From positions 1 through 23,368 of the forward strand of contig JAKSYS010000807.1 in assembly GCA_022925895.1 (NCBI GenBank): a DNA stretch of 23,368 nt, written 5' to 3'. The stretch's first letter is position 1; the number at the start of each line of letters is the position of its first letter. The translations under genes were made by a program, and so were the position numbers. This document shows positions 3,076-23,368 of this stretch, one piece after another. The notes beneath the pieces were generated by a model. That model saw nothing but the letters and a program-made list of their open reading frames with translations. It was not told the origin of the DNA and did no database searches. Source of the DNA: Fragilaria crotonensis. Lineage: Eukaryota > Bacillariophyta > Fragilariophyceae > Fragilariales > Fragilariaceae.

Positions 3076-3557
3076 CATCTCTACGTAGTCCATTATTGCA
3101 ATACCTTCCCTCTTCAGCTGACTTCTTGTTTTGAGATTCAAGTCAAGATGCTTCTGCACCAACCCTGATCGGTCTCGAAGAGAATGTCCGACCTGCAAAG
3201 GAGAAAATTGTGAGGCTTCTGAGGACTGCGCTGGTGGTTCAATACTACGAGTAAAATCCACGCTTCAAACCTTACCTTCATTTTCGTCGCACTGTACGTG
3301 ATCTCTGCAAATATTCCTCTTTTGTCTCGCTGAAAGCGATATCCTGCTGCTAGTGCAATATCGATGACGGTGCGGACGAGACCGGTTTTAAAGCTGCGGG
3401 ATTTACTGTCAACGTACTCCTGAATAAACATATCCACAAGTCGTCGAAAGCGTCGATTCCCAATGAAGTTGTACATATTATGCCCTCGACCGATCAATAT
3501 GTCTCGGTCTCCTGGTCGTACCAGATAACTCGATTCTGAGCGGGGAGATTTCTCCAT
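3040..3557 (-). CDS. DUF6824 domain protein (two exons)
   Basis: Exon 1 is complement 3276-3557 and exon 2 complement 3193 minus one (3192) to 3040, giving 144 residues. The domain starts near residue 17 with RDILIGRG, followed by GNRRFRRLVD, a basic stretch with KTGLVRTVID, GYRFQRD and, across the splice site, SATKMK then VGHSLRDR. This order (D-x-L-x-GRG, GN-x-x-FR, GRFL-like, A-x-x-K-x-x-x-x-LR) is the signature of DUF6824, a family expanded in diatoms whose biochemical function is unknown to me. The basic, compact fold suggests nuclear or DNA-related work, but that is inference. I chose the ATG at 3557 because its context (CACCATGG) is strong; an upstream in-frame ATG at 3710 has a weak context and would add 51 residues. 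No membrane segment or signal peptide is seen. The 3' end is uncertain because a second intron is possible at 2995-3075. Confidence 0.75.
3193..3275 (-). other. Intron of the DUF6824 gene
   Basis: An 83-nt GT-AG intron: donor GTAAGG, acceptor preceded by TTTTCTCCTTTGCAG. It sits on a codon boundary (phase 0). Its length is not a multiple of three. Removing it moves the reading from a meaningless tail into the frame that supplies the last conserved block of the domain (VGHSLRDR), which is the strongest evidence that it is spliced. Confidence 0.85.
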
Positions 3558-3691
3558 GGTGCACGTTGTGCTGACAGAAACGTCGAGGCATTCGCTGCTG
3601 TGGATTCGTGTGATTGAGCCCTGAGTGAAACTGATGCAAAAAGGACCTTGAAAGAAGTTCCGCTGTTCGGAAAATCGCCTTTCTGCATGGT

Positions 3692-4436
3692 GTACTTGCA
3701 TTGGTATCATACCCGAGACCCGAGTATGCTGTTACGGTACTGTACACCTACCTACGACGTATGCATATAATACAAAAAAAACACGGCATGCATAGGCCAC
3801 AGGATGTACCAGGTACTAGTACCACGTACCACGTACCATATACAGTGTACAGGTAGATGTATGCATACGTCATGCAACGTGCAGCCACAAAAGCATAAAA
3901 CGGAACTTTGGCATGAACATATATACCGATACGATGTATAGGTATATATATCGTGTCATGCATCATGCATCATGCATCATATGAACAAGCAGAATTTGCT
4001 ATATGTTTGGTGTGTGCATATTCATAAAAGTGCAACAACGCAACAACTCCTTGTGAGCATACGCATACGTACGACAGCGACGCGCACCGCACCTTTGCAC
4101 ATGGTTACCTGGTTACCTAGAGTTGTACGACGGATATAAGCGAACGACGCTTACAAGAACTTCGGTACCACGGTACGAATACCCTATCGCCTGAAGGCAA
4201 ACGAATGACCTTGACAACCAGGCTGCAGAAATGATCGCAACAATCAAGCGATTTATTGTCTACATGTACAAGTACCAGGTATGCATACAGTACAGATCAA
4301 AGTATGATATCTTCACATAAGTTGTTGACTGTTCCCAGTTCCCGGTCACATGTGAAACCCGCCCTGTGTGAAGATAGCCCAATGCTTCCTCTCTATACAG
4401 TACATTTATCTGATACCAGGTACTAGTACAAGGTAC
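3692..4436. repeat. GTAC-rich palindrome cluster
   Basis: I count 20 GTAC tetramers in about 745 bp, where about three would be expected at random. Five lie within 31 bp at 3806-3836, spaced 6-7 bp apart. A 15-bp string, ACCAGGTACTAGTAC, occurs twice (3808-3822 and 4415-4429). Many are embedded in longer palindromes such as GGTACC and AGTACT-like strings. Confidence 0.7.
3957..3980. repeat. 7-bp tandem repeat (CATGCAT)
   Basis: Three exact copies of CATGCAT followed by CAT. Each unit is itself close to palindromic (ATGCAT). Confidence 0.9.
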
Positions 4437-5584: not shown

Positions 5585-5965
5585 CTAAGTACACAAATTG
5601 GCAGGATTGTTGTGAGTCGAGACATGGCTGGTGATGCATTTGCCTATTGCTGCAGACTTCTTGCACTGTGTGGTAGCATTCTGAATTGAACTTCTTCCTT
5701 GACATTGACTCAGGTTAAATGTCTGACATTTTGTCACAAGAATTGGACTTCTTCCTTGACTTTGACTCTGGTTCAATGTCTGACATTTTGTCACAATAGA
5801 TGAAAGATGGCCCACTAAAGGGAACACCCCCAGCATATGCAGTTTATAGCAAAGTCCCCTCAATGATTCCACGCTATTCTTTGTACCTCCATCTCCATTC
5901 TCAAACATGATGGGTTCAATTGTTGCCTTGTTCTTCAAAGAGGACCATGCCATGACAGGAGACAT
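5585..5965 (-). pseudogene. Unidentified coding remnant with tandem repeat
   Basis: A 126-codon frame. Its first half looks coding (WSSLKNKATIEPIMF, then a run with GTKNSVESLRGLCYKLH), while its second half is two 19-residue tandem units around VTKCQT and SQCQGRSS. The frame can be extended upstream by about nine codons before a TGA. I do not recognise the family. The AT-rich, stop-laden setting suggests a mobile-element or host-gene remnant and not a working gene. Confidence 0.35.
5683..5796. repeat. 57-bp tandem duplication
   Basis: Two adjacent 57-bp units (5683-5739 and 5740-5796) that begin GAATTG and end TTTTGTCACAA, with about five mismatches. The length is a multiple of three, so the minus-strand frame through it stays open. 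Confidence 0.85.
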
Positions 5966-6896: not shown

Positions 6897-7970
6897 TTAC
6901 GTACTGCCGCAGCGACCATGACTGAGATACGCTCGACCCTCACGGTTAGACACATCTCCCGAAGGAGTGCGTCCAACGTTTGTAGTCCCATACTGTCCCC
7001 GAGGTGACCCTGCTAAGGGGTCCTCATCCCTGTGCCGGTGCGTAGTACTCCCGGATGGACCGTACGTTTTGGATGGCTTTAGCTTTCCCACTATGAAGAC
7101 TCTGAATGAAAGTCGGCCCGTTGATTGTTAACCATGTCTGAATAACCCAGGAGGGTTGTTCCAGGTGAGTCCTTACATCAGGAAATAACAGAGCCTGCGC
7201 ACTTCGTTCCATATTGTTTCGTTGATCGTAGATCCATTTTAACTTCCGTGTCATTTCTTGCTTCTCCTTGTTTATCGCTCTTGTGGCCTCATCTTTACCA
7301 TGCACATCCGCGTTCCGCTGGATCCATAACTTATGCCATTCTTTCCAGATAACCATGATAAAAGTGACCTGGCGGCCACATTTTCCAGGGTTGTCTTTTG
7401 TAAACTGATTCCAAATTTCATACAAATGCGTGTTTTGAATATCTGCCCAATGCTGACAAAACCTGCCATTAAACAGCTGCCTCCAACCTATTCTCTTTTG
7501 AGCATCAATGAGAGGCAGGATGTAATTCTTGCGCAAAGTAGACCGCTTGCGGTGCGTCGTGGAGTTCCTGTCCCAAATAGAGCCATAGACCGCTTGCGGT
7601 GCGTCGTGAGTTCCTGTCCCGAATAGAGCCACTGCCGGACTGCTTCCAAAAGCAAGCTTGACTAGGTGCGTACGTATTATTGGTGATACACGCATCACAA
7701 AGGTCGTGAGCAATTAATGACGCCGTTGATTTCGTTTGGCCGATGGACACCTGAGTATAGTATGATTGCAATCCTGGTGAAGGGACGCACAGCAAGTTGT
7801 CCTTTATGCATTCGGTTCTTCTGGCTGTGGGTTGGGAGAATACCATGAGCAACCTTAACGTAGTGCCGACGACGGGGAATCTGCTTCCAAAGCATTCTTC
7901 CATGTGCCTGCCAATTGATGGATGCTGTGGTAGCTTCCGACCATTTATTTCTTGTTCGTATGTATTCCAA
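6897..7970 (-). pseudogene. LINE C-terminal domain
   Basis: Covers the part after RNase H. An upstream frame (7695-7970) holds WQAHGRMLWKQIPRRRHYV followed by VAHGILPTHSQ, typical of the Trp/basic block that follows RNase H in this family. A longer frame (7024-7713, 229 codons) contains IWNQFTKDNPGK, VIWKEWHKLWIQRNADVHG and SIREYYAPAQG. The putative zinc-binding block between them is damaged by frameshift and by a 47-bp duplication. The C-terminus near 6897-7024 is shifted again. The role in the element is presumably RNA or target-DNA contact; this is inference. Confidence 0.7.
7541..7630. repeat. 47-bp tandem duplication inside the LINE
   Basis: Units at 7541-7584 and 7588-7630 both read GACCGCTTGCGGTGCGTCGT, then GAGTTCCTGTCCC and AATAGAGCC, with one indel and one substitution between them. 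A third partial echo lies just beyond (AGAGCCACTGCC). It repeats the HDAPQAVYG coding block in two frames. Confidence 0.85.
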
Positions 7971-9629: not shown

Positions 9630-10345
9630 CTGATAAAGTGCAATTCTCCACTTCATTCCAAGCATCATATCATAATCTGCTTTATATATATGTATGACGC
9701 GCGTACGATGGAAACAGATCTGATTGTCGGGATCTTTAAAAGGATTGTGTTAAAGACAGTCCTCCACAGCTGGTAAGCATATCCTCTTTCCAATGCATAA
9801 TCTATGTCAACATGGAGGGTCAGCAAACAGCCTTGCATGTGATTCCATTTGTCTTTCTTTGCTTCTTCCTCTGGCATTCCATCCTCTAAATCAGAATAGG
9901 CATGTCGCGATATCAATGCTTTATAATGTCCAAGGTGCATACTGGATGGGGGAGTTGATGTCGATTCTGTCCACACTCGTAATTTGTCCACGTATTCTTG
10001 CTCCGTGATTTTAAGGTATGATTCTCTTGCCGCCATTTCTGCCGAATGCTGCAAGTGGTGTGTAAGAAAAGCTACGTTTTCGTCGAGACCCGTTGCATCA
10101 TACGTCCCATTCAATACATCATCTAAACTGACCCCATTGCCACAAAAATCAACTTGTTTGATCAACTGTGCGACAGTAAACAGAGGTCCATGCTTTTGCC
10201 CGAAATGCTTCTGATTGCACTGAAGTAAATGGTACAATATTTCTGTGAGAACTACGATTTGCCTCCATTGCATACAGTGCTTAGGATCACTACTAGCAAG
10301 GTGGAGTGGTGTTTTGATCCTTGTAACTCCCTGACGCTCGTTCAC
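9630..10345 (-). pseudogene. LINE reverse transcriptase, N-terminal part only
   Basis: The 226-codon frame 9665-10345 holds the fingers region: STPPSSMHLGHYKALISRH, then an acidic stretch and WRTVFNTILLK. A frameshift at the TTTTAAA run near 9735 leads into DPDNQICFHRTRVIHIY and ADYDMMLGMKWRIALYQ at 9650-9735, which match the family. After KWRIALYQAV the sequence jumps straight to the far-downstream block GGANFRHLY. The palm with its catalytic aspartates and the thumb are missing, so the copy cannot reverse transcribe. Confidence 0.8.
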
Positions 10346-11890: not shown

Positions 11891-12590
11891 TTCTTCTGAG
11901 GTAAAAAAGATTTCTGCTGCCCATAACGTTTGCGCTTGTTGGAACTGCGCCTTGAGGTGTCATCTGTGTTTCCGTTTGGGCAGTCGGGCTTGGTGCTGTT
12001 TCTGAGTCTTGTATGTTCTTTGGATCTCGTTGGACTGTAGTCATTATTGACGGAGATTCCATAATCACTTGGATCGGTATCAATATGTTACGAGGATTAG
12101 TGGTTGGTGTATCCATTGGTATTTGGGGATTGGTAGTGATGGTGGTGGTTCTCACGGTCACATTAGGTACAATGAGGTGGGACACGTGGGTGGAAAAAGT
12201 CTGATATGTAATGGTTTGAGTGATTCTATGTGGTGTTGGGGCTGGTGGAGTATGATTGGTACTCTGCATCGATTGCTTCTGAAAAACATCCCTCGTCATT
12301 CTTTCATTGAGAATGTGGTTCGTTGTCATAATGTCAGGAGTTTGCATCCAAGATCTACCAAGTCGATCATACGCATAATGACATGTACCACAAACTGTGT
12401 ACGATGACTGAAGAGCCTCACCACAATCATGATATGGAATGCATACTACTACTCTCATCAGTGCCATCACCATCAATACAAGAAATGAAGGGGAGAGCGA
12501 CTTCATTGCTTCTCCTCCTCCTGACACTCTCCAAGACCAGTCATGAAGAGCAGAAAGTGGCAATGCCTCCTCCATGTGGTGCTGCTGGAT
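11890..12590 (-). pseudogene. LINE leader or ORF1-like Pro/Thr-rich region
   Basis: The minus frame 11814-12575 is open for 253 codons. It starts with a basic and hydrophobic stretch, holds a possible Cys pair block (CGEALQSSYTVCGTCHYAYD) and then a long Thr/Pro/Ile-rich low-complexity run. A frameshift near 11890 is needed to join the endonuclease frame. It may be the N-terminal part of the polyprotein or an ORF1. No RRM or zinc knuckle is certain. Confidence 0.5.
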
Positions 12591-12616
12591 TTGATGTAAC
12601 TATTGCTGTTGCTGCG

Positions 12617-12870
12617 TATGGATTCGATTGGAGTAGAGTATGTTGGTGGCATGGTGGTTTTGGATTCCATTGGAGAAGTGGATGTTTATGGTGTGGTTGC
12701 TTGTGGATTTGCCTATTGGAGTTCTGGCTGGATGTTGGTGGTGTGGTGGTTATGGATTCTGCTACAGAAGTGGATGTCCCCAGTGATGCGTTTTGACTTC
12801 TGTTGGAGTTGTGGTAGTGGATGTTGGTGGTATCATGGTTTTGGATTCCATTGGAATAGAAGTGGACAAT
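12617..12870. repeat. Degenerate tandem repeat, about 90-bp period
   Basis: Three related blocks starting near 12653, 12745 and 12835 share GGTTTTGGATTCCATTGG or GGTTATGGATTCTGCTAC followed by AGAAGTGGA. A shorter, looser copy lies at 12617. It is T/G-rich on the plus strand and lies at the probable 5' end of the LINE, so it could be the promoter-type repeat of its 5' UTR. Confidence 0.6.
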
Positions 12871-13389
12871 GCCGTTGGTGCGGTTTCACGTACTGGTGCT
12901 AGTAATGGAGTAATACTAGTCTAGGATCATGGTGCAGTTATGGATACTGCTTGGTCTACTGGAGAAGTTGAGGATATAAAACATGGCGCCTACATTGTAA
13001 AGGATATTCCATGATGATGCCGCAATACCACTGTTGGCTGGCATCAATCTACAACAATGATGATAAAATCATCATTCACTCTAGGAGCATTACTAATTCA
13101 CTGGACCTGGAGCATGGTTGTCGGATTCAATGCCAATACATGCAAAGTTAGCATTTGCTAATGAAATAACCTCTTGACTACGGGAACCTGACGGTGCATC
13201 TGCTTGCTTATGCATTCCTTGCTTCCTTCAAATCAGATTTCAATCTTGTCATTCTTCCAACCATCTCAGGCCTTGGACTGTTTGAATACTGAACCACATT
13301 GCCCCATTTTTGCAAGAGCACCAGAAATACCAAGACAACCCTGTGGAGGTTGTTAATGGTTCCGATCAATGCCAATGTCAAGGTCAAGC

Positions 13390-13423: not shown

Positions 13424-14374
13424 TTTGGACTGTGGACAACCGACTGAATAATCTATCGAAATGTAGTATGCTCCCAAGAAATGAACCTAAAGTCCGGCCG
13501 CATAATGTACCGCCAACTAATCAATCAAACGCCATGGGTGCCACCCATAATGCTGTTTGACAGGCTTTGAGGCCCATCACAAGAAGGGCCGCCACTTCAA
13601 ACTACTCATGAGAATTATTTCCAAGTATGATCAGGCTGAGGATTTCCAATCCAGATCAAGGCCTTACAGTTGTTCTTGCGTAGTATCAATGACAAACTTT
13701 GTAATAGTTCCAAAGGTGTTTAATGCATTTTCTGACCACACTGACATCTGGTCCTGGCAAGCAGATGGTATTGTCCGATGGCTCAATTGACGGGCCTATG
13801 CAAGGTCTCAATTCACTCATCCTGAATTTCAGCAATTACAATTGTAACAATGTGTCATTTCAGTCCAGCACTTTTGTTGAGATAATGTTAGCACTCATCA
13901 CCAAGATTACTGATAGGGGCTTCAACAATCCTCCTCTGTGGAATGATTAGGCAATAAATCTGTGTATGATGATGCACAAATAACATCCCAGGCCTACAAC
14001 ATATTTATGCAGAACCTTCTTGTTGGCATTTCTGACTGTCATCTGCGCTGCTCCATGGCTCACGCCGATGTGCAAAGACAACTGTCGTTGAGATTAGCAG
14101 CAATAAGAATGCAGCAGTGCAAGACTGTTGTTGGTTGTGGCATGAATGCCAAACAGTCCACCAGATTGCCTGCAGCGTAGCATTTGATGGAACAACGGCG
14201 TAAACCTGTCTGCATGCTGCTGGTACTGTTGGCATGTGCACCTTCAACCACATCTGCCCTTCAACCCGTTGGCAATGAATTGTTAAATACCATCTTAATT
14301 GAGGAGCTGACCAAACTTCCAAAAGAGCAGCTGGCTTAGGAGGCATTTATTGCAGTGAAATCCTTCCAGCCCAG

Positions 14375-14561
14375 ATGCCAAATGTGACCAGCAGGTCACA
14401 AATGGCTTTGCTGGCTGTCCAGCCGCAGCATGTCAACTCCAAATCGGACTTTATCCAGCAGGTTCTTGAAATTGTGAGGCATCAGTGCCCGGTACCTTCT
14501 TGGGTTATTCTGGTGATGGAGCGCATGCTACCACGATTAGGAAAGATGAGCTTCTTGGATG
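14375..14561 (+). pseudogene. Frame interrupted by the retrotransposon (left part)
   Basis: An open plus frame that runs to the left edge of the inserted element and would end two codons inside it. If the element (14562-19738) is removed, the frame continues without a stop into 19739-19857, giving 101 codons plus stop. No family is recognised, and the length alone does not prove it was coding. Confidence 0.35.
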
Positions 14562-14857
14562 CGAAATAAATTCCGAGTCTTGTCCAAATTTCTCTAAGTC
14601 CGTTTAGTCGGATGAGTCGTCTGCTTCGTGGTTTCGTCGTACCGTTGTCTCGCGCACTGTCGTGTCGATTCGTATGTTGTCTGTGGTCATTTTCGTTTCT
14701 CTTTTGTGCTCGTGAGACTAGTAGAAATAAATAGATGGCATCGGAATCTGGTCCTAATAGTTTTGTCTCTCTCTCCTGGTTCGTCTCGCGGTGTCGGTCC
14801 CGTGATAGTTATCTAGCGGGGTCCGTCGCGCGATTGTGAGTCGACCTGGTTTCCGCC
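14562..14857 (-). repeat. Split direct repeat B2 (outer copy)
   Basis: 296 bp, from CGAAATAAATTCCGAG to GACCTGGTTTCCGCC on the plus strand. It matches 15094-15387 with one substitution and two 1-nt indels. It forms the 3' end of the element in coding sense. Confidence 0.95.
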
Positions 14858-14954
14858 CATGCAGAGCATGGCCGGAGGTAACCGGCGCCAGGGGCGCCGA
14901 TGAACCTAGGCATCGGGCCAGGAGGAGGTGTGGGTGGGTGGGATTAACTAGAGT
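14858..14954. other. Spacer between A2 and B2, palindrome-rich
   Basis: 97 bp found once in the window. It contains CATGCAGAGCATG (inverted repeat around AGA), GGCGCCAGGGGCGCC (two palindromic GGCGCC sites) and a G-rich run GGAGGAGGTGTGGGTGGG. Its role is unknown; it may fold or bind a protein. Confidence 0.6.
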
Positions 14955-15093
14955 AGTGTCTTTGTCGATTCGAGTTCGTCTGGGATTGTGAGCAATCGTA
15001 TCTTGTGTTGTGTTGTGTCGTGGTGTTCGTCTGTCTGTGTCTCGTGTTCGTCTGTCTGGTGGCGACTGCTCGTCTTGATCTTCGGACATGCCA
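14955..15093 (-). repeat. Split direct repeat A2
   Basis: 139 bp, from AGTGTCTTTGTCGATTCGAG to TTCGGACATGCCA on the plus strand. It matches 19595-19738 with a few substitutions and indels, the largest a 5-nt gap near CTCGTC. It abuts the B1 repeat exactly. Confidence 0.95.
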
Positions 15094-15387
15094 CGAAATA
15101 AATTCCGAGTCTTGTCCAAATTTCTCTAAGTCCGTTTAGTCGGATGAGTCGTCTGCTTCGTGGTTTGTCGTACCGTTGTCTCGCGCACTGTCGCGTCGAT
15201 TCGTATGTTGTCTGTGGTCATTTTCGTTTCTCTTTGTGCTCGTGAGACTAGTAGAAATAAATAGATGGCATCGGAATCTGGTCCTAATAGTTTTGTCTCT
15301 CTCTCCTGGTTCGTCTCGCGGTGTCGGTCCCGTGATAGTTATCTAGCGGGGTCCGTCGCGCGATTGTGAGTCGACCTGGTTTCCGCC
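15094..15387 (-). repeat. Split direct repeat B1 (inner copy)
   Basis: 294 bp, almost identical to 14562-14857. It follows the recombinase gene in coding sense and joins A2 without spacer; this B1-A2 junction mimics the junction of the circular DNA form. Confidence 0.95.
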
Positions 15388-15483
15388 ATTTTCCGGTTGT
15401 CGTTCGTCCGCAGAATCTGGGGCGATCGTGTAGAAAGATTGTCGACTCGTCATCGTGGGCTACTCCGAGTGTCGAGTCTGGCA

Positions 15484-16290
15484 CTTGAATCGGAGGTATC
15501 TCATGAACGTCTGGCTTCGCCACCTCCCCACCATCTGAATCGTCTCACTCGGAACTCCGGCGAGGTGCATGGCCATCGCGGCGCCTGATCTGATCAGTGA
15601 GTGCCGATGCTACTCGCCTGGAGGCCAAGCCTCTTCCCCTGAGTCGTCGCCATCCTGAGCTGCCTCAGTATGGACTTGGAAGAGATGTGTTGGGGTTCGT
15701 CTGAGTCCTGCGTCCTGACGGCGTTAATCTTCGGGTTCGTCCGTGAATGGCAATCGTAACCCCGTACCCTCGTCGTCAGGTCCGCTAGCACGCGGACGGG
15801 GCAGATGTCCGTTTGTCCCTGCCTGTCGTTTCGATGCTGAGTCACTGTCGCGCCTTTGTCCCCGTTCTTTGTCGCCGGAAGGTGATCGACACGGTGTCGG
15901 CATTCTCCAGTTGTCCTCGGTCGGTTGTCTGCAGGTCCTGTCCCTTCTGTCGGAAACGAACGTCGTCCACTCTGATCACTGATGTCGTCCGTCGGCTTCC
16001 GACATCGGAATATTCGCACGACCTCATGGCGAAAAAGAACGCGACCACCACAAGCTGTCCAATAGCGATGTCAGTCTCGTTTCTTGCCCAGGATCGAACC
16101 TTTCGAATCACCTCTAACGGCAGCGCCTGCTGTGGGGTAGGTCCTGGGTCCTCGTCGGCGTAACGTTTCAGTTGTAAAGCCAGAAGGGGGTCGAGTCGTC
16201 CGGCGGCGTCGTGGATTGGGCTCTCAAATTTGTTAAGCCTGAAGGCCTGAGCCACACTGTCGAGGGTGGCACGAATGGAACCGGACAAGG
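15484..16290 (-). pseudogene. Tyrosine recombinase of the DIRS/PAT element
   Basis: The frame 15842-16288 holds LPLEVIRKVRSWA and VVVAFFFAMRSCEYSDV, with the first catalytic Arg in MRSCEY. After a frameshift near 15870 the next frame (15594 onward) carries the ICPVRVLADL block and ends SSIGTH at a TGA. In a third frame follow LIRSGAAMAMHLAGVP, IQMVGRW and TFMRYLRF. These supply the H of GTH, the second Arg of RSGAA, the Trp/His position in GRW and the nucleophile Tyr of MRYL (about 15500). All catalytic positions I can check are kept; two 1-nt shifts break the frame. The enzyme would insert the circular cDNA. Confidence 0.85.
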
Positions 16291-16619
16291 GTCCATTGCC
16301 AGCTTCCTGAGGTTGTCGGGAGCGAAGCCGTCCGTCCCGAAGGGCGGCGGCGAAGCAGGCGAACGTTTCTGCTTTCGCTTCTCGTCCGAGTCCTTGGAGA
16401 AAAGGTTCTCCGACTCCGTCGATTCGTCCGAGAATCTTTCGTAACAGCGCCAGCTGCTATCGCGCTTGGCACGGGTTGAGTCGGCAAGAGCTGCGTTTTG
16501 GGCAGCAGCTGCAGCCAGCCTCCAATCTGCGAAATAAGGGCTGGCCGCAAAGGGATGATCCTGAAGTTCTGTGGAACAAACGGTGAGCAGTTTTTCGTGA
16601 TCAAGTCTGTCAGTGCCGC

Positions 16620-17139
16620 GTCGTCTAGTGCGAAATCTCGGAGAGCATGTCCGCCACCTTGTTCTCTTTCCCGGGGAACCACTGCGTGTAGTGGTCTATC
16701 TCGTGCGTGAGGCAGAAATCAGCGAAAGCTCGGGCTATCGTCAGGTGAAGCGGACAATCGTCGTTGAAGTTCGACTTAGCAAGCCATCCCGCTGCTGAGG
16801 TGCTGTCTCCCTGACTGAGCAGAACGTCTTCGTCCGTCCACGCGGCCCCTTCGTGGAATTCCACGATCATCCCCACAAAGGCAGCAAGGAACTCGAGAGT
16901 GTTTAGGGTCGCCGCCCCAGCAGGTGCTCTGGTAGCTGATATCGCCACGCCAGGCCGCTCTTGAGGCAGTAGCCTCCGATGCCTTGTGGGCATGCGTCCA
17001 CCCTCACTATGCGCGTCGGCCACCGGCAAACCAGCCTGTTGATCGAGATACCTCGCGACGCCTTCTGAAGGAAAGCCTTCCACAGAATCAGGTCGTCCAG
17101 TTGGGGTTTGGTCAGTCTCGCCTTCCCGGCCTGCTTCAA
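16620..17139 (-). pseudogene. RNase H domain of the DIRS/PAT element
   Basis: Two overlapping minus frames (16903-17139 and 16625-17083) are joined by one shift near 16910. They carry the four acidic residues: D in RVDACPQGIGGY (about 17000), E in LNTLEFLAAF (about 16900), D in LLSQGDSTSAAGW (about 16810) and D in NKVADMLS (about 16650). WFPGKEN precedes the last. This is the RNase H placed after RT in DIRS-like polyproteins. Upstream, KPQLDDLILWKAFL belongs to the RT-RNase H connection; downstream, FALDDAALTDLI and IGGWLQLLPKTQ lead to the recombinase. Confidence 0.85.
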
Positions 17140-18330
17140 CGCTCGCAGGCCTTGTATAGCCTTCCCATAAAGTGTCTTGCGTAAGGGATGACGTAGGCGG
17201 CGTGGCTAAAACGTCCGAGGGTCGTCTCTAGGTCTCTCGTCGTCACAAGGCATGTCTGTGCGCCAGCATCCTGTCAACGGCTTGCGTCCAGCTCGTGTGC
17301 TTATCGTGAGGCAGTGCGACGATGAAGCGGCGTGTGTCCACGATCCATCCGAGGATCATCTTCCTCTCGGATGGTTTGGCCTCGGCCAGGAACTTTGGGA
17401 TCGCAAGGATATCGTCTCTGGGAAAGTCTCCTCAACCTCGGGGTCGCAAGGCCTCCCGACCAGGTGAAGCGCCAGCGGGATCGCGGCAGCGCTCTTTCTG
17501 CGTCGCGGGTTGAAGGCCCCAAAATGTCGTCCAGGTAGCAGTCGAAGCGAGGAGGTCGTCGTAGGGTGGATAGTTCACTGCGAAGTAGTCCGCCTTGCCG
17601 AAACACTCATTTTGTCGACCGACCCTTTGTCATTGTCCACTGCCCCTCGGTGTCCAGGAGGTGCTGGTGCGGCGAGTGGTAGACGCTTGATCCCAGTCGT
17701 CCCTGCGGACAAGATCGTTTGCCAAGTCCGTGATCATCTCCGACACGTCGCTCCATTGCGATGGGTTTGGCGCTCCACCGAACGTCATCCTCAGCGCCAC
17801 TAACAGCAGGTCGTCGATACTCGTGCAGGACTTCATGGCTGTGGCTGCTTTGAGATGGATTCGTCTGTAGGCGGATTTGCAGTCGACCTTCGTCATCCAG
17901 ATAGGCTCTGGCCATAGTTGGCGCAGGAGATGATGTACATGAGTCTGCTGAATGCTTTTCCAAACGTGCTTCTGTCAGTTGGGATGTGTCCACGCCGTTC
18001 GTTTACGCTTCGTCCTGCCACTCCGCTCGGGCTGAATGACTGGTCGTGTCAGTCGGAGTTCTCTATTGAATTTCCTTTCGTCGATCGACGTCTGCGCGAC
18101 CATCCCCAGAGGCGCGACCTCGCATCCCTTGATCTCTAAGGCGGCTCGCGGCAGTGGTAGCTGCCAACCCCTTGAGGCTTCGTCCTTCAGCATGGATATC
18201 AACTTTGCCTCGTGGCCTCGGGCCGATTTGTGATTGCCGCGAGCTAAGTTGGCGCGCACGTCTGCGAGGCGGTCAGAATCCGAGATCTCGCGAAGCGGAA
18301 CTCGGCCCTTCGGAGATGCGCTCCTGAAAA
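17140..18330 (-). pseudogene. Reverse transcriptase of the DIRS/PAT element
   Basis: Minus frames 17975-18259, 17630-17896, 17301-17606 and a further one at about 17170-17450 carry, in order: ARGNHKSARGHE, GWQLPLPRAALEIKGCEVA, PLGMVAQTSIDE, TKVDCKSAYRRIHL (first catalytic Asp), DDLLLVALRMTFGGAPNPSQ, RFDCYLDDILG (YxDD box, 17549-17517), MILGWIVDTRR and RHFMGRLYKA. The LRMTFGGAP and YLDD blocks are diagnostic of DIRS-like RT. At least three shifts and one stop (after WTHPN, near 17975) interrupt it. Confidence 0.88.
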
Positions 18331-19734
18331 CGCGGCCAGAGAGGGTGGGCGGACAGGAGCGGGGCGAGAAGTTCGGTGGCGAAACTCGGATCCCGGCGTC
18401 AGGGCGCTGAACGGCTGGGCCCGAAGGGCGGCGTCGAGGTCGAGGGCGTACCGTTTGAGCACCGCGAGGTTGTGGCGGGCGGCGTCATGCGTCCAGTCGA
18501 AGCGAAACTCCGTCGCGTGTGCGCGGTTGGCCGGAGTGCAAAATGGTGGCAAGGGCATCGGCCAGGCGTGGTTCGGAAGTCGGGAACGGCGAGTCGACGT
18601 TCGGGAGCGGGATCGTCGGCAATGGCACCAACGATGGGAACTTACCGGGAAGCGGGCGTGGCGTGTCTGCGAGGGCTGATGTCGGCGCGTCGTGGGCGTC
18701 TCCGGGCGACAATGCGCGCGCCACGGTGGTCGGTCGGTGGCGAGTCGAGGGCGGAGCGTAGCGCCCAGGCCCGACTTCGTTTCGTGACGGGTCGTCGCAG
18801 GCTGGCGAGAGATGCGGGGCGTCGGCGACGTGGCGGGGGCGAGAAGGTTCGTGCGCGTGGGTTCCCGCGGGACGGTCTCGGGCGGCATATTCCGATAAGG
18901 TCCGGGGCGTCCTACGTGGCGTCTGTTGTGGAACTCGGCCGTCGACCGTTCCTGGTCGAACGCCCATGGTGACGGCTGTGCGACGAAGGCGGGCTGGAAG
19001 TAAGCAGATGCAGAGGGTCCTAATTTTGTTTTCTTGCTGGGCGGCGTCGCGTCGGACGAGGCGGCGCATGCGCGCCCGGCACTGCTCTATCCACGCTCGT
19101 ACGGCGGTCGTCTGTTCGGTCGTGAGGGCGACGTGCGAGGCGCTCAAGAAACAGCTCTTGACGCACTTCCCGTTTAGGTGCCACCTGCAGCACATGTTCG
19201 GGATCGGTCCACTTCGGACGTGATCGAGGAACACCTGCCAAGTGTCGTTCGCGTCTCTCGAAAAAGGTCCTGCTGTGGGTTTGTGACTGTGTCCGCGGGT
19301 TGCCCGCGACGTCCGGCTCGAGCGCTCCCGGCGGCGGCTACAGGCTGCGAGTCGCCCTTTTGGTCGACTCCACGTCCCAGCCGCTCCTTGAGGAAATCGC
19401 AAGCCGGGAAGACAAAGGCGCCGTCCTCCAACTGCTGCCGGGTGGACCTGAATTCCAGGAGTGCTGGGTTGATCTCGTCCTCGTGTTCGACTCCAGCGCA
19501 GAGAACTAGGTATTGTTGCATGCGTTTTTCGATGAACCAACCTAACCTGCACGCGGCTGAGGGGTCGGCGTGCGCTAGCTGGCGAAGCGTCGCCAGTGTC
19601 TTTGTCGATTCGAGTTCGTTCGGATTGTGAGCAATTCGTATCTTGTGTTGTGTTGTGTCGTAGTGTTCGTCTGTCTGTGTCTCGTGTTCGTCTGTCTGGT
19701 GGCGACTGCTCGTCCTTACCCGATCTTCGGACAT
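18330..19734 (-). pseudogene. Gag-like protein of the DIRS/PAT element
   Basis: The first ATG is at 19734, only five bases inside the element, in the A1 repeat. The N-terminal part is encoded by the repeat and is polar and repetitive (HQTDEHETQTDEHYDTT). It continues with LRQLAHADPSAACRLGWFIE and a helical stretch to QQDLFRE. A shift at the run of five T (near 19262) moves into frame 18485-19552, with DTWQVFLDHVRSG and a zinc-binding pattern CRWHLNGKCVKSCFLSASH (C-x7-C-x3-C-x5-H, about 19190-19135). A long Pro/Arg/Thr-rich tail follows. A further shift near 18530 leads to RHNLAVLKRYALDLDAAL. The order fits a capsid/nucleocapsid protein. Confidence 0.7.
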
Positions 19735-19738
19735 GCCA
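19595..19738 (-). repeat. Split direct repeat A1
   Basis: 144 bp matching 14955-15093. It forms the 5' end of the element in coding sense and encodes the first residues of Gag. Confidence 0.95.
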
Positions 19739-19857
19739 GTGAGATCAACGGGGGCAACTTCATCGCAGAACAGGACATCAACCACAAAAAAATAAATGAT
19801 CTTAGTGCTGCACAGGTGGGTGGGTGGAATGCTTGCACGCTCTTACGGCAGCATTAG
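19739..19857 (+). pseudogene. Frame interrupted by the retrotransposon (right part)
   Basis: Open from the right edge of the element to TAG at 19855-19857, including NGGNFIAEQDINHKKIND and QVGGWNACTLLRQH. Joined to 14375-14561 it keeps the frame. Unrecognised family. Confidence 0.35.
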
Positions 19858-21789
19858 TAAAAAACGGCAAAGGGTCTTGGCGGCCAACATGCCATTTCGA
19901 TGGTGGCATCGGTCATCTAGCTATTGAACGTGATGGTCTTTAGATTGATCCTTCAAGGTCAGGAGCAGCACAAATTGCCGCTGACTTATCGTCAATGATT
20001 TCTGATGCATCCTGCGGCTTGAGGTGCACAATGAACCAAATTGGGTATACATAAGGCGATTTATGTCCCTTCTTGGATCCATTCCGCTGAACGAGTTTAT
20101 AAAAGTGAACAACCAAGAAATGAAGCACAGGGAAGAGTTGGTGAAACAGGATGACCTAGACAAGCCGCAATCCACAACCAACGTGCTGTCCTACGCTTTG
20201 ACAGCTTCCTGGCTTTTGAGGGCAATGAGGAGCTGCACCAGCAGAGGCCACCAAAGCCACTCCGCATGGTGAGTGAAGACAACTTGTTGCTGCCAGCAAT
20301 GGACATGTTCCTGTGAATGCATTACTCAACTTGAACAACATCCCCATTGTACAAAGAGGCAGGAGCAGGTATGACAATCATGCTCAAATGGCACCTGGCA
20401 GTTGCAGGATGCACCAGGCATGCAAGGTAAGCTCGCTTGGGTCACGCAGGCGTGGCAAATGCCTCAACATCAAACACCAAATGGAGTTCATCCTCATCGA
20501 TGCATGTGATGTAGCTAAAGATGACTCAACCACCGCTGAAAAACTTAGCACAGCAGGAGCTTGAGCTGTAACTCTTGCAGACTCACCATCTTGTGAGCTC
20601 AAATTTCACCTGGGTGGAAGTTGGCATTATGCTCCAGGATGAACAGCCCAGATATTTGCTGGCTGGATGATTGATCCAATGGAGCACCCATTTTGTTGGC
20701 ATCATTGTTCACGTACTAGCCCATATAGTAGGTGGTTCTTGTGCAAATTGAAAGGAAGTCCCTAATCATGTTGAGATGTTGTGGAGCATGAGTATGTTCA
20801 GTTGGCAACACATCCAGCATTGTTTGGTATGCTTTCTTTGATGAAAATGAAGGTTCAATCCCGCAAAGCTATAAGCCTTTTACTCATGGCCCCATCCCTA
20901 TTCCTGGTGAGCTGATGGGACAACAAATGTGGAGAGGATGCGCCTTCCATCATACAGCAAGCTCACAACACAAAAACACTACAAGAACAAGTTTCAGCCA
21001 GCAATTTGCCATCAAAGACTCAGCACCAACAACTGAAACAGAACAAGTGTTGAAAGACAGGAATACTTTGCTAATCTTGACAATGTCGTTCTAATGGTGG
21101 ATACGGACAAGAATATCACTGGTTACAGATTAATCATCTGCCAAGTGAAAGCAATAGGTTAAGGCTATAAAAGCGGAGCAAACATGTGAATTGCTCCTAG
21201 TATGGAATCCAGTTTGGGCAATGAAGAAGATCAAATGGTCACTTCAAGAAAGCAACACAGAATTTGTGCGGGGAGTACGTTGTAAGTCATTGTTATACAT
21301 GGAAGAGAAAAATGAAGGACATAACAACTAACAACTCCGCCTTTACATGTTATTTCCCGTGCCAAGCGCGAAGGGCAGCCATTTCAGGGACATCAAATTT
21401 AGCAGATCAAATTTGCAATGTTGGCCTGGGCCTCGGACCATTGTCATGACGCTCACGCCTCTGGGCAATAACATGGGCATACACGACTATTGAGAAGCAA
21501 TCTCGATCACGAGCTCCATCAACATTTGGTGCTAGTTTCCTAGATTTGCAGAGGACTGTGAACTGATCCATGAGGATACTCGCACAATCCACCAATAAAG
21601 CCGGAACAGACCAATGACGAATGACTCGAAGAGGGATAAAATATTAGTGAATTATTGTCAAAGCATTAGCCCGAGGGAACGAGGCGATTCTAATACTTGA
21701 ACTAGAATAACCTTGAAGAGCAAAACTATAACTGAGGTCCGCAAAAAGCCGAGTATGTTCGTTGGCCATAAGACGCCAGCGCCTATCAC
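19858..21789. other. Decayed region right of the element
   Basis: Plus-strand coding traces occur in several frames, for example RFDSFLAFEGNEELHQQ and LRMVSEDNLLLPAMDMF near 20190-20310, CLNIKHQMEFILIDACDV near 20460-20520, and a 61-codon frame at 21264-21449. All are short and stop-bounded. No motif is recognised. It is probably one degraded element or gene together with 12900-14561. The last few hundred bases before 21790 may include the 3' untranslated region of the desaturase. Confidence 0.4.
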
Positions 21790-23272
21790 TTAAAGCGACG
21801 CAGCTGAGTCGCCAGGCTTGTTCAGCGAAAAGACGAATTCCAAACATTCTCGACAGGCCGATGCCAAGTCAAGTGTCTGTCGAGGAACAACTCCATGCTT
21901 TCGACAGATGTGTTCGTACTCATCATACATCTCGGCGAAATGCGCTGAACAGATGGTCGGCATTGTATGGTGTAATCCCTGATTATTGAGTCCCCGGTGG
22001 CCCACGTCATGATCGGATTACCGACTGAATAATCGAGCGCAGTACTTATCTGTTGCGCGGTCCAACATGAATCGTGGTGCCACTCCATTGCGTCGCTTCC
22101 TGCACATGAGATGTCTGTGTCATCGTCGTCCAGATGATACTCATTCCAATCCACGGCCAAATCTCGGCAAAGAGTGCCTCAGAAGGGAGCATAACCCCTG
22201 CAACGCAAGCAAAAACTGGGTATAACAGCACAAAGAATGAGGGAAGCATGCTGAGTAGTAGCGTTCGTTTGCTTACAGCTGCAGGTATAGGGGTGATATT
22301 CACGTCAAAGTTCGGCGTTGTCGTTTCCAACAAGGTTCGCAACGGCTGCAAGATGCAGGTTCCTAATGTAGTTAAGCAACCTTTCCATATAAATGTCCAT
22401 CCTTGGTTAAAATTGGATGGTTGCACGTAAGGCTCTTGTTCGCGAGCCAGTCGTGCAGCGGCGAAATGATGTACATCAACGTCGTGCTGAGGGTCGTTGG
22501 TATACTGGTGGTGCGACAAGACATGCTGCGGAATCCATACATACACGTTGAATAGAATTGGATGCGCCGTGAACTGAGCCCAAAAGTTGATAGCAGGGTT
22601 TGAACTGAGAGCACCATGGGTGGCCTCATGGACAGTGTGAGCCGCCAGGAGCCACTGAGCCAACGGCAGCATGAGCGTAGCAAGAAAGTGACCTCGCAGC
22701 CATCCCATCCAACAAGTGGCGCACAGCATGGCAAACCCTACCGTTCTCGCCCAGTGTTTCGGAGTCGCCTTCATAGATTCGGTATTTGGGAATCTCCTGA
22801 GAACCATGGCCTGAAGGTCGCGGCGTAGAGCAGAATTAATCTCAGGCACTTGACGAACAACACTATCATCCAACGCAAAGACGTAAGGACCTTGAAGAGC
22901 TCGTTCACTTTCTATTTGACTGCGACGCAGCCCTGCTCGAGTCGGTAATGGAACTTCTGAAACGTCAAGAGTTGGAAGATTAGCGAGCACTGCTTTGGCT
23001 TTCTTTTCACCGTGCATGTGAATAGCATGAAAGATGGGGGTCACGTCTCTTCCTCGAGCGTATTCTAACAACCACCTCCCGCCCTTGTGTTTGTCAGCGT
23101 AATCCTTCAAGTCATACCAAACACCATCAATGCGAAGTGGCAATACTCCGAGACCATTGGCAGTTTGCGTGGTGAGCGACTTAACGCTTTCGCAAGGAAC
23201 ACTGATCATGCATGACGCCGATGGCAAGAAGAAAAGGAGCAAAGACCGAGGTGTTGTTAAGACGCCCTTCAT
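21790..23272 (-). CDS. Cytochrome b5-fusion fatty-acid (front-end type) desaturase, frameshifted
   Basis: The ATG at 23272 opens a frame of 408 codons; two 1-nt shifts (near 22088 and 21993) are needed to reach the stop at 21790, for about 490 residues in all. Residues 1-22 form a hydrophobic leader (SLLLFFLPSASC) that may be a signal or organelle-targeting peptide. A cytochrome b5 domain follows at about 45-100 with HKGG at 62-65 (normally HPGG) and the second heme His in IFHAIH near 82. The desaturase part has HEATH (215-219), HVLSHH (250-255) and, after both shifts, GLNNQGLHH, a QxxHH third box. Hydrophobic segments flank the first box and lie near 335-385. The layout is that of front-end desaturases, which act on acyl lipids in ER or plastid membranes; substrate and position of the double bond cannot be told. 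Frameshifts may be sequencing errors. Confidence 0.8.
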
Positions 23273-23368
23273 GGCCAAAGTCTTGGCGACTTAGTGCCGA
23301 CGTGCTGGCATACGTTGGAAGTGCCAACATAAGTTTTAGAGTGCGTTTAGATGTTTAGATTTTCAAGG
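23273..23368 (-). promoter_or_regulatory. Start of the desaturase upstream region
   Basis: Only 96 bases are available. There is an out-of-frame ATG about 60 bases upstream of the chosen start. No TATA box or other motif can be assigned. Confidence 0.25.

Follow-up and report, generated by a model that had tools for sequence, protein, structure and literature searches.

A probable full-length, frame-interrupted Ngaro-type tyrosine-recombinase retrotransposon on contig JAKSYS010000807.1

What kind of mobile element lies on the minus strand of contig JAKSYS010000807.1 between positions 14562 and 19738, and is this copy intact? The window referred to below is the whole stretch of DNA that was analysed, 23,368 nucleotides (nt) of that contig. 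The 5,177-nt element is very probably a full-length, frame-interrupted tyrosine-recombinase retrotransposon of the Ngaro type (order DIRS), residing in a eukaryotic, probably stramenopile, genome. We base this assignment on features of the sequence: the arrangement of the repeats, the position of the ends, and a set of rare coding motifs together with their order.

Split direct repeats and ends of the element

Read along the minus strand, the element consists of A1, a coding region, the block B1-A2, a spacer and B2 (Table 1). A1 and A2 align with 136 matches, 2 substitutions and 4 gap runs (98.6% identity over aligned bases), and B1 and B2 with 293 matches, 1 substitution and 2 gap runs (99.7% identity over aligned bases). 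The longest exact repeat measures 155 nt; when the 6.3-kb region was shuffled 200 times under a first-order Markov model, the longest one was 17 nt. B1 and A2 are directly contiguous (15094/15093), with 0 bases between them. The outer ends of the element, TGGCATG... at the start of A1 and ...TTTATTTCG at the end of B2, are the same sequences that touch at this internal junction. This match supports 14562 and 19738 as the true ends, base-exact except for any bases that the flanks may share with them. No target-site duplication is present, in that no common word of at least 4 nt directly abuts both ends; the best common 4-nt word nearby, CTCA, stands 1 nt ahead of one end and 11 nt beyond the other. 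The fraction of G and C (GC) is 0.585 within the element, compared with 0.445 in the 5 kb to its left and 0.474 in the 3.6 kb to its right. Among the 16-mers of the element, a single one recurs elsewhere in the window, at 21356.

The original prediction had proposed a full-length element with this split-repeat layout and these two ends. The repeat alignment agrees with the layout, the match between outer ends and internal junction places both termini exactly where they had been drawn, and the claim of full length is supported as well.

Two further features of the repeat region were considered as candidate signals. The 97-nt spacer is GC-rich, and the 9-bp stem predicted when 14855-14955 was folded is no stronger than in shuffled sequence (z -1.45; 15 of 200 shuffles as good or better). 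The inverted repeat TCGGA/TCCGA (5 bp), whose centre lies close to the B1-A2 junction, looked like a recombinase core site but was rejected as evidence, since 747 of the 5,137 windows taken along the element hold one that is equally well centred.

Table 1. Coordinates of the element and its parts in the window
Feature	Position	Strand	Basis
Whole element	14562..19738	-	GC and repeat analysis
A1 (5' half-repeat, 144 nt)	19595..19738	-	Repeat alignment
Gag-like region	19016..19737	-	Open frame and Cys/His cluster
Reverse transcriptase, pieces in three frames	17324..18271	-	Motifs
RNase H, split between frame 1 and frame 0	16628..17124	-	Motifs
Tyrosine recombinase	15463..16456	-	Motifs
B1 (294 nt)	15094..15387	-	Repeat alignment
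A2 (139 nt; abuts B1)	14955..15093	-	Repeat alignment
Spacer between A2 and B2 (97 nt)	14858..14954		Repeat boundaries
B2 (3' end of the element, 296 nt)	14562..14857	-	Repeat alignment

Coding motifs and their order

The coding region of the minus strand carries, in this order, a Gag-like region, a predicted reverse transcriptase (RT), an RNase H and a tyrosine recombinase. This is the succession named in the original prediction, and the motifs are present in the sequence to which it pointed. The Gag-like region is open in frame 1 over 19177-19737, with its first ATG at 19734, inside A1, and thereafter continues in frame 0, where a cysteine/histidine cluster of the form C-C-x7-C-x3-C-x5-H occupies 19192-19133. 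We call it Gag-like from its position and this cluster. The motifs of RT, RNase H and tyrosine recombinase have established functional meanings. Those of the RT read DCKSAYRRI at 17884, MTFGGAP at 17788 and YLDDI at 17537. The four acidic positions of RNase H appear in VDACPQGIGG at 17001 (frame 1) and in NTLEFLAA at 16903, QGDSTSA at 16813 and PGKENKVADMLS at 16675 (frame 0). The recombinase begins with an open frame 0 segment (15845-16456) that contains AMRSCEY, at 16030, with the first catalytic arginine motif (Arg-I) at 16027-16001. Downstream of Arg-I, frame 1 reads HSLIRSGAA... and then GVPSETIQMVGRWRSQTFMRY at 15558, with GRW and the tyrosine within 15558-15496; the frame thus shifts between Arg-I and the Tyr box.

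Nine regular expressions were matched to the three frames, with 300 first-order shuffles of the element as control, and eight of them found a match. RT motif A, RT motif B, the third aspartate motif of RNase H (D3, PGxxNxxADxLS) and the GRW...Y box of the recombinase occurred in 0 of 300 shuffles, and YLDD in 1 of 300. The commoner motifs also turn up in shuffles, and the identification therefore relies on the rare ones and the order in which they occur.

Evidence against the identification

Several results weigh against this reading of the coding region. By chance, the RNase H D2 motif was found in 5, the RNase H glutamate motif in 20 and the recombinase Arg-I motif in 37 of the 300 shuffles; the expression for the first RNase H aspartate had no match, VDACPQGIGG having been placed by eye. 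In the recombinase, whose catalytic set comprises Arg, His-x-x-Arg, His/Trp and Tyr, we can read Arg-I, GRW and Tyr. The canonical HxxR is absent from the Tyr frame, in which the histidine and arginine are spaced H-x-x-x-R (15603-15591). Within 15463-16300, HxxR occurs just three times and never at the expected position: as HAPR at 15571 (frame 0, across the Tyr box but in a different frame), as HSRR at 16134 and as HLPR at 15807. The statement in the original prediction that the recombinase has all catalytic positions is thus not upheld. An AlphaFold model of the 204-residue recombinase segment, computed without relatives, was too poor to use (mean predicted local distance difference test score 41.8; predicted template modelling score 0.25); it showed helices followed by a strand pair, compatible with a recombinase, and was not used as evidence.

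Profile and structure-sequence searches point the same way. The best RT match, to the Pfam family RVT_1, reached E 0.083 and 13.0 bits (cut-off 29.6) and ranked below an unrelated family, while the RNase H, recombinase and Gag pieces had no meaningful Pfam family match. The RT, RNase H and recombinase pieces had no match in NCBIfam and, in PHROGs, only one to an unnamed family (E 0.22); sequence searches of the PDB with the same three pieces returned one meaningless match each. Splitting into short frames is a likely cause of these weak profile matches, and divergence is another.

Scans of viral, phage and prokaryote collections yielded no relative. In viral contigs, the RT piece gave 20 pattern stretches and the recombinase piece 11, with 0 confirmed for either, and the RNase H piece gave no pattern match; compared with phages by tblastn, the RNase H piece had no match. 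In genome contigs, a stricter RT motif-B pattern had 0 matches, and none of the 193 pattern stretches for the RT piece was confirmed. Twelve viral loci retrieved with a degenerate DNA pattern for RT motif B were dismissed as chance: among 11 pieces compared by tblastn, the best reached E 0.019 over 9 residues, which are the pattern itself. Missing viral, phage and prokaryote relatives are expected for a eukaryotic element and are uninformative about its rarity.

Assignment to the Ngaro type

Elements of the order DIRS combine RT, RNase H and a tyrosine recombinase, lack a DDE integrase and leave no target-site duplication. At the level of motifs the element shows this combination, with profile matches that are sub-threshold or absent; no integrase family appeared in the Pfam scans made, and its ends carry no duplication. 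A DIRS1-like element was rejected, as 0 inverted repeat pairs (at least 25 nt, seed 12) were found in 14000-20300. Ngaro (and VIPER) elements are defined structurally by split direct repeats without a methyltransferase, and PAT elements by the same repeats with one (PMC3266345, PMC4157794, PMC3783388 and PMC6681497). The A1-ORFs-B1A2-B2 arrangement of open reading frames (ORFs) and repeats seen here is shared by both types. The split direct repeats and the domain order therefore agree with the PAT/Ngaro assignment made in the original prediction.

The choice of Ngaro over PAT or VIPER is a structural one, and the layout, together with the missing methyltransferase match, speaks for Ngaro more than for PAT. 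Methyltransferase matches in Pfam were absent from the 18 segments scanned whole and the one scanned in part (85%), among 29 open minus-strand segments of at least 60 amino acids; of the other 10, 7 overlap the B1-A2-B2 repeats wholly or partly. At most 171 nt separate the end of RNase H (16628) from the recombinase segment (16456), and 75 nt the end of the recombinase (15463) from B1. Since these gaps are too small, a methyltransferase in the usual place after RNase H is unlikely to fit. The element might instead be PAT-like, its methyltransferase lost or hidden by the sequence. Its repeat layout would be identical, loss of the methyltransferase from a Pat1-like lineage has been published (PMC4157794), the possible zinc finger in the Gag-like region is a Pat1 trait (PMC4157794), and 5 PAT-like families coexist with 15 Ngaro families in the brown alga Ectocarpus (PMC12477816). 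Against these points stand the missing methyltransferase match and the lack of room after both RNase H and the recombinase, and we regard a PAT-like origin as improbable. An ordinary long terminal repeat (LTR) retrotransposon whose repeats look split because of a rearrangement is far less credible still. The RT and RNase H motifs by themselves would be compatible with one, as would the weakness of the profile matches, but the outer ends match the B1-A2 junction base for base, the recombinase box occurs in 0 of 300 shuffles, and no duplication lies directly at the ends.

Proposed life cycle

In the accepted model for this group, the internal B1-A2 block templates closure of the complementary DNA (cDNA) into a circle, which the recombinase inserts without duplicating the target. 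Applied to the present Ngaro-type element, transcription would proceed on the minus strand, Gag would package the RNA, and RT-RNase H would copy it. The internal B1-A2 block, in which both ends are already joined, would then serve as the template for closing the cDNA into a circle. Recombination between the B-A junction of the circle and a genomic site, carried out by the recombinase, would leave A1 and B2 as the termini, without a target-site duplication. Every step of this putative cycle is inferred from what has been published on the biology of such elements. The anatomy of the element agrees with it: the repeat layout, the identity of the outer ends with the internal junction, the motifs in order, and no duplication at the ends.

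Decay or sequence error

The copy as read is probably broken. Intact reading frames are not supported: RT-RNase H, over 16628-18271 (1,644 nt), was followed in ten hand-chosen pieces (1,236 nt) in three frames, with at least 8 frame changes. The near-identity of the repeats stands in contrast to these interruptions. These pieces hold no stop, a count biased by their having been picked by eye. True decay and sequence errors are both possible explanations for the breaks, and we give them equal weight.

On a reading in which faults of sequencing or assembly account for most frame breaks, the element carried by the living organism would be intact and young; we hold this reading evenly balanced against decay. 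Across both repeat pairs, gap runs outnumber substitutions (6 against 3), which in our judgement is unusual for neutral decay, and the pol span changes frame 8 times without a stop in the pieces. The adjacent cytochrome b5-desaturase gene likewise changes frame, at 22088-22052 and at about 21990. Its ORF at 22046-23278 on the minus strand matches Pfam FA_desaturase (E 1.5e-10, profile positions 8-186), and it apparently continues in two other frames, over 22052-21990 and then 21990-21883. The last piece is collinear with profile positions 213-249 of the same family. The two extra frames, spread over about 200 nt, in which the C-terminal part of this gene (21883-23278) seems to run on hint at sequence errors or a pseudogene. 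Because the desaturase also shifts frame and gaps exceed substitutions between the repeats, some breaks in the element may be sequence errors. Yet the absence of stops is biased by the choice of pieces, the match of the last desaturase piece is weak (E 0.046, below the cut-off and ranked fourth among the matches) while the middle piece matched nothing, the numbers are small, and the desaturase could itself be a pseudogene. A stronger version, in which the breaks are sequence errors and the element represents a young, really intact and possibly mobile diatom lineage of the Ngaro type, too divergent to reach any Pfam cut-off and with a distinctive A2-B2 spacer, strikes us as doubtful.

Other features of the window

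A DUF6824 protein is encoded at 3138-3710 on the minus strand (Pfam E 4.5e-11). We take this family to be typical of diatoms and hence a clue to the host, which may plausibly be a diatom. Two minus-strand open frames, 9665-10345 and 7024-7713, have Pfam matches that are sub-threshold and to unrelated families; presumably they resemble parts of another algal reverse-transcriptase element. A tandem pair of 57-nt units, 93% identical, lies at 5683-5796. A 47-nt direct repeat at 12628-12855 (85% identical, copies 181 nt apart) falls in a stretch with a strong GC skew of 0.284 (12001-13000).

Comparison with known systems

Diatom annotation already lists elements of this order: the Phatr3 table for Phaeodactylum gives 14 copies of DIRS against 1,434 of Copia (PMC5859163). 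The likeness to our element is one of order-level label in a diatom genome, and this one table agrees with the earlier claim that copia outnumbers elements of this kind in the annotation of diatoms. An older review mentions DIRS/Ngaro-like elements in the annotation of a marine-stramenopile genome (PMC3145265), and the open-licence literature searched yielded no account of a diatom element with split repeats. The kind of element, its layout and its occurrence in stramenopiles have been published before (PMC8547959, PMC12477816), as has a DIRS class for Phaeodactylum (PMC5859163), and the general importance of the finding is therefore small. If confirmed with sister copies, it would provide a base-exact, full-length split-repeat recombinase retrotransposon, probably of diatom origin, whose internal junction and two ends are defined. 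It would then be of use for repeat libraries and for the question of inheritance across stramenopiles.

Among described systems, PAT, TOC and kangaroo elements share the split direct repeats and the RT-RNase H-recombinase content, but they are described with a methyltransferase domain (PMC3266345, PMC4157794), and none was found in the segments scanned here. VIPER resembles the element in having A1 at the 5' end, B1, A2 and B2 at the 3' end, and no methyltransferase; it is described from kinetoplastids only (PMC6681497), whereas the present window holds a DUF6824 protein, of a family typical of diatoms. Ectocarpus, a photosynthetic stramenopile, harbours 15 Ngaro and 5 PAT-like families of split-repeat recombinase retrotransposons, which we compared by their description (PMC12477816). 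Closest by layout, again compared by description, are the Ngaro elements of the stramenopile Cafeteria burkhardae (PMC8547959). Whereas the present element has a 97-nt spacer between A2 and B2, has interrupted frames and is not seen inside a virophage, it shares with the Cafeteria elements the A1-[ORFs]-B1A2B2 arrangement, the domain order GAG/RT/RH/YR, the character of a GC-rich insert, and a similar size, 5.2 kb here compared with about 6 kb (PMC8547959).

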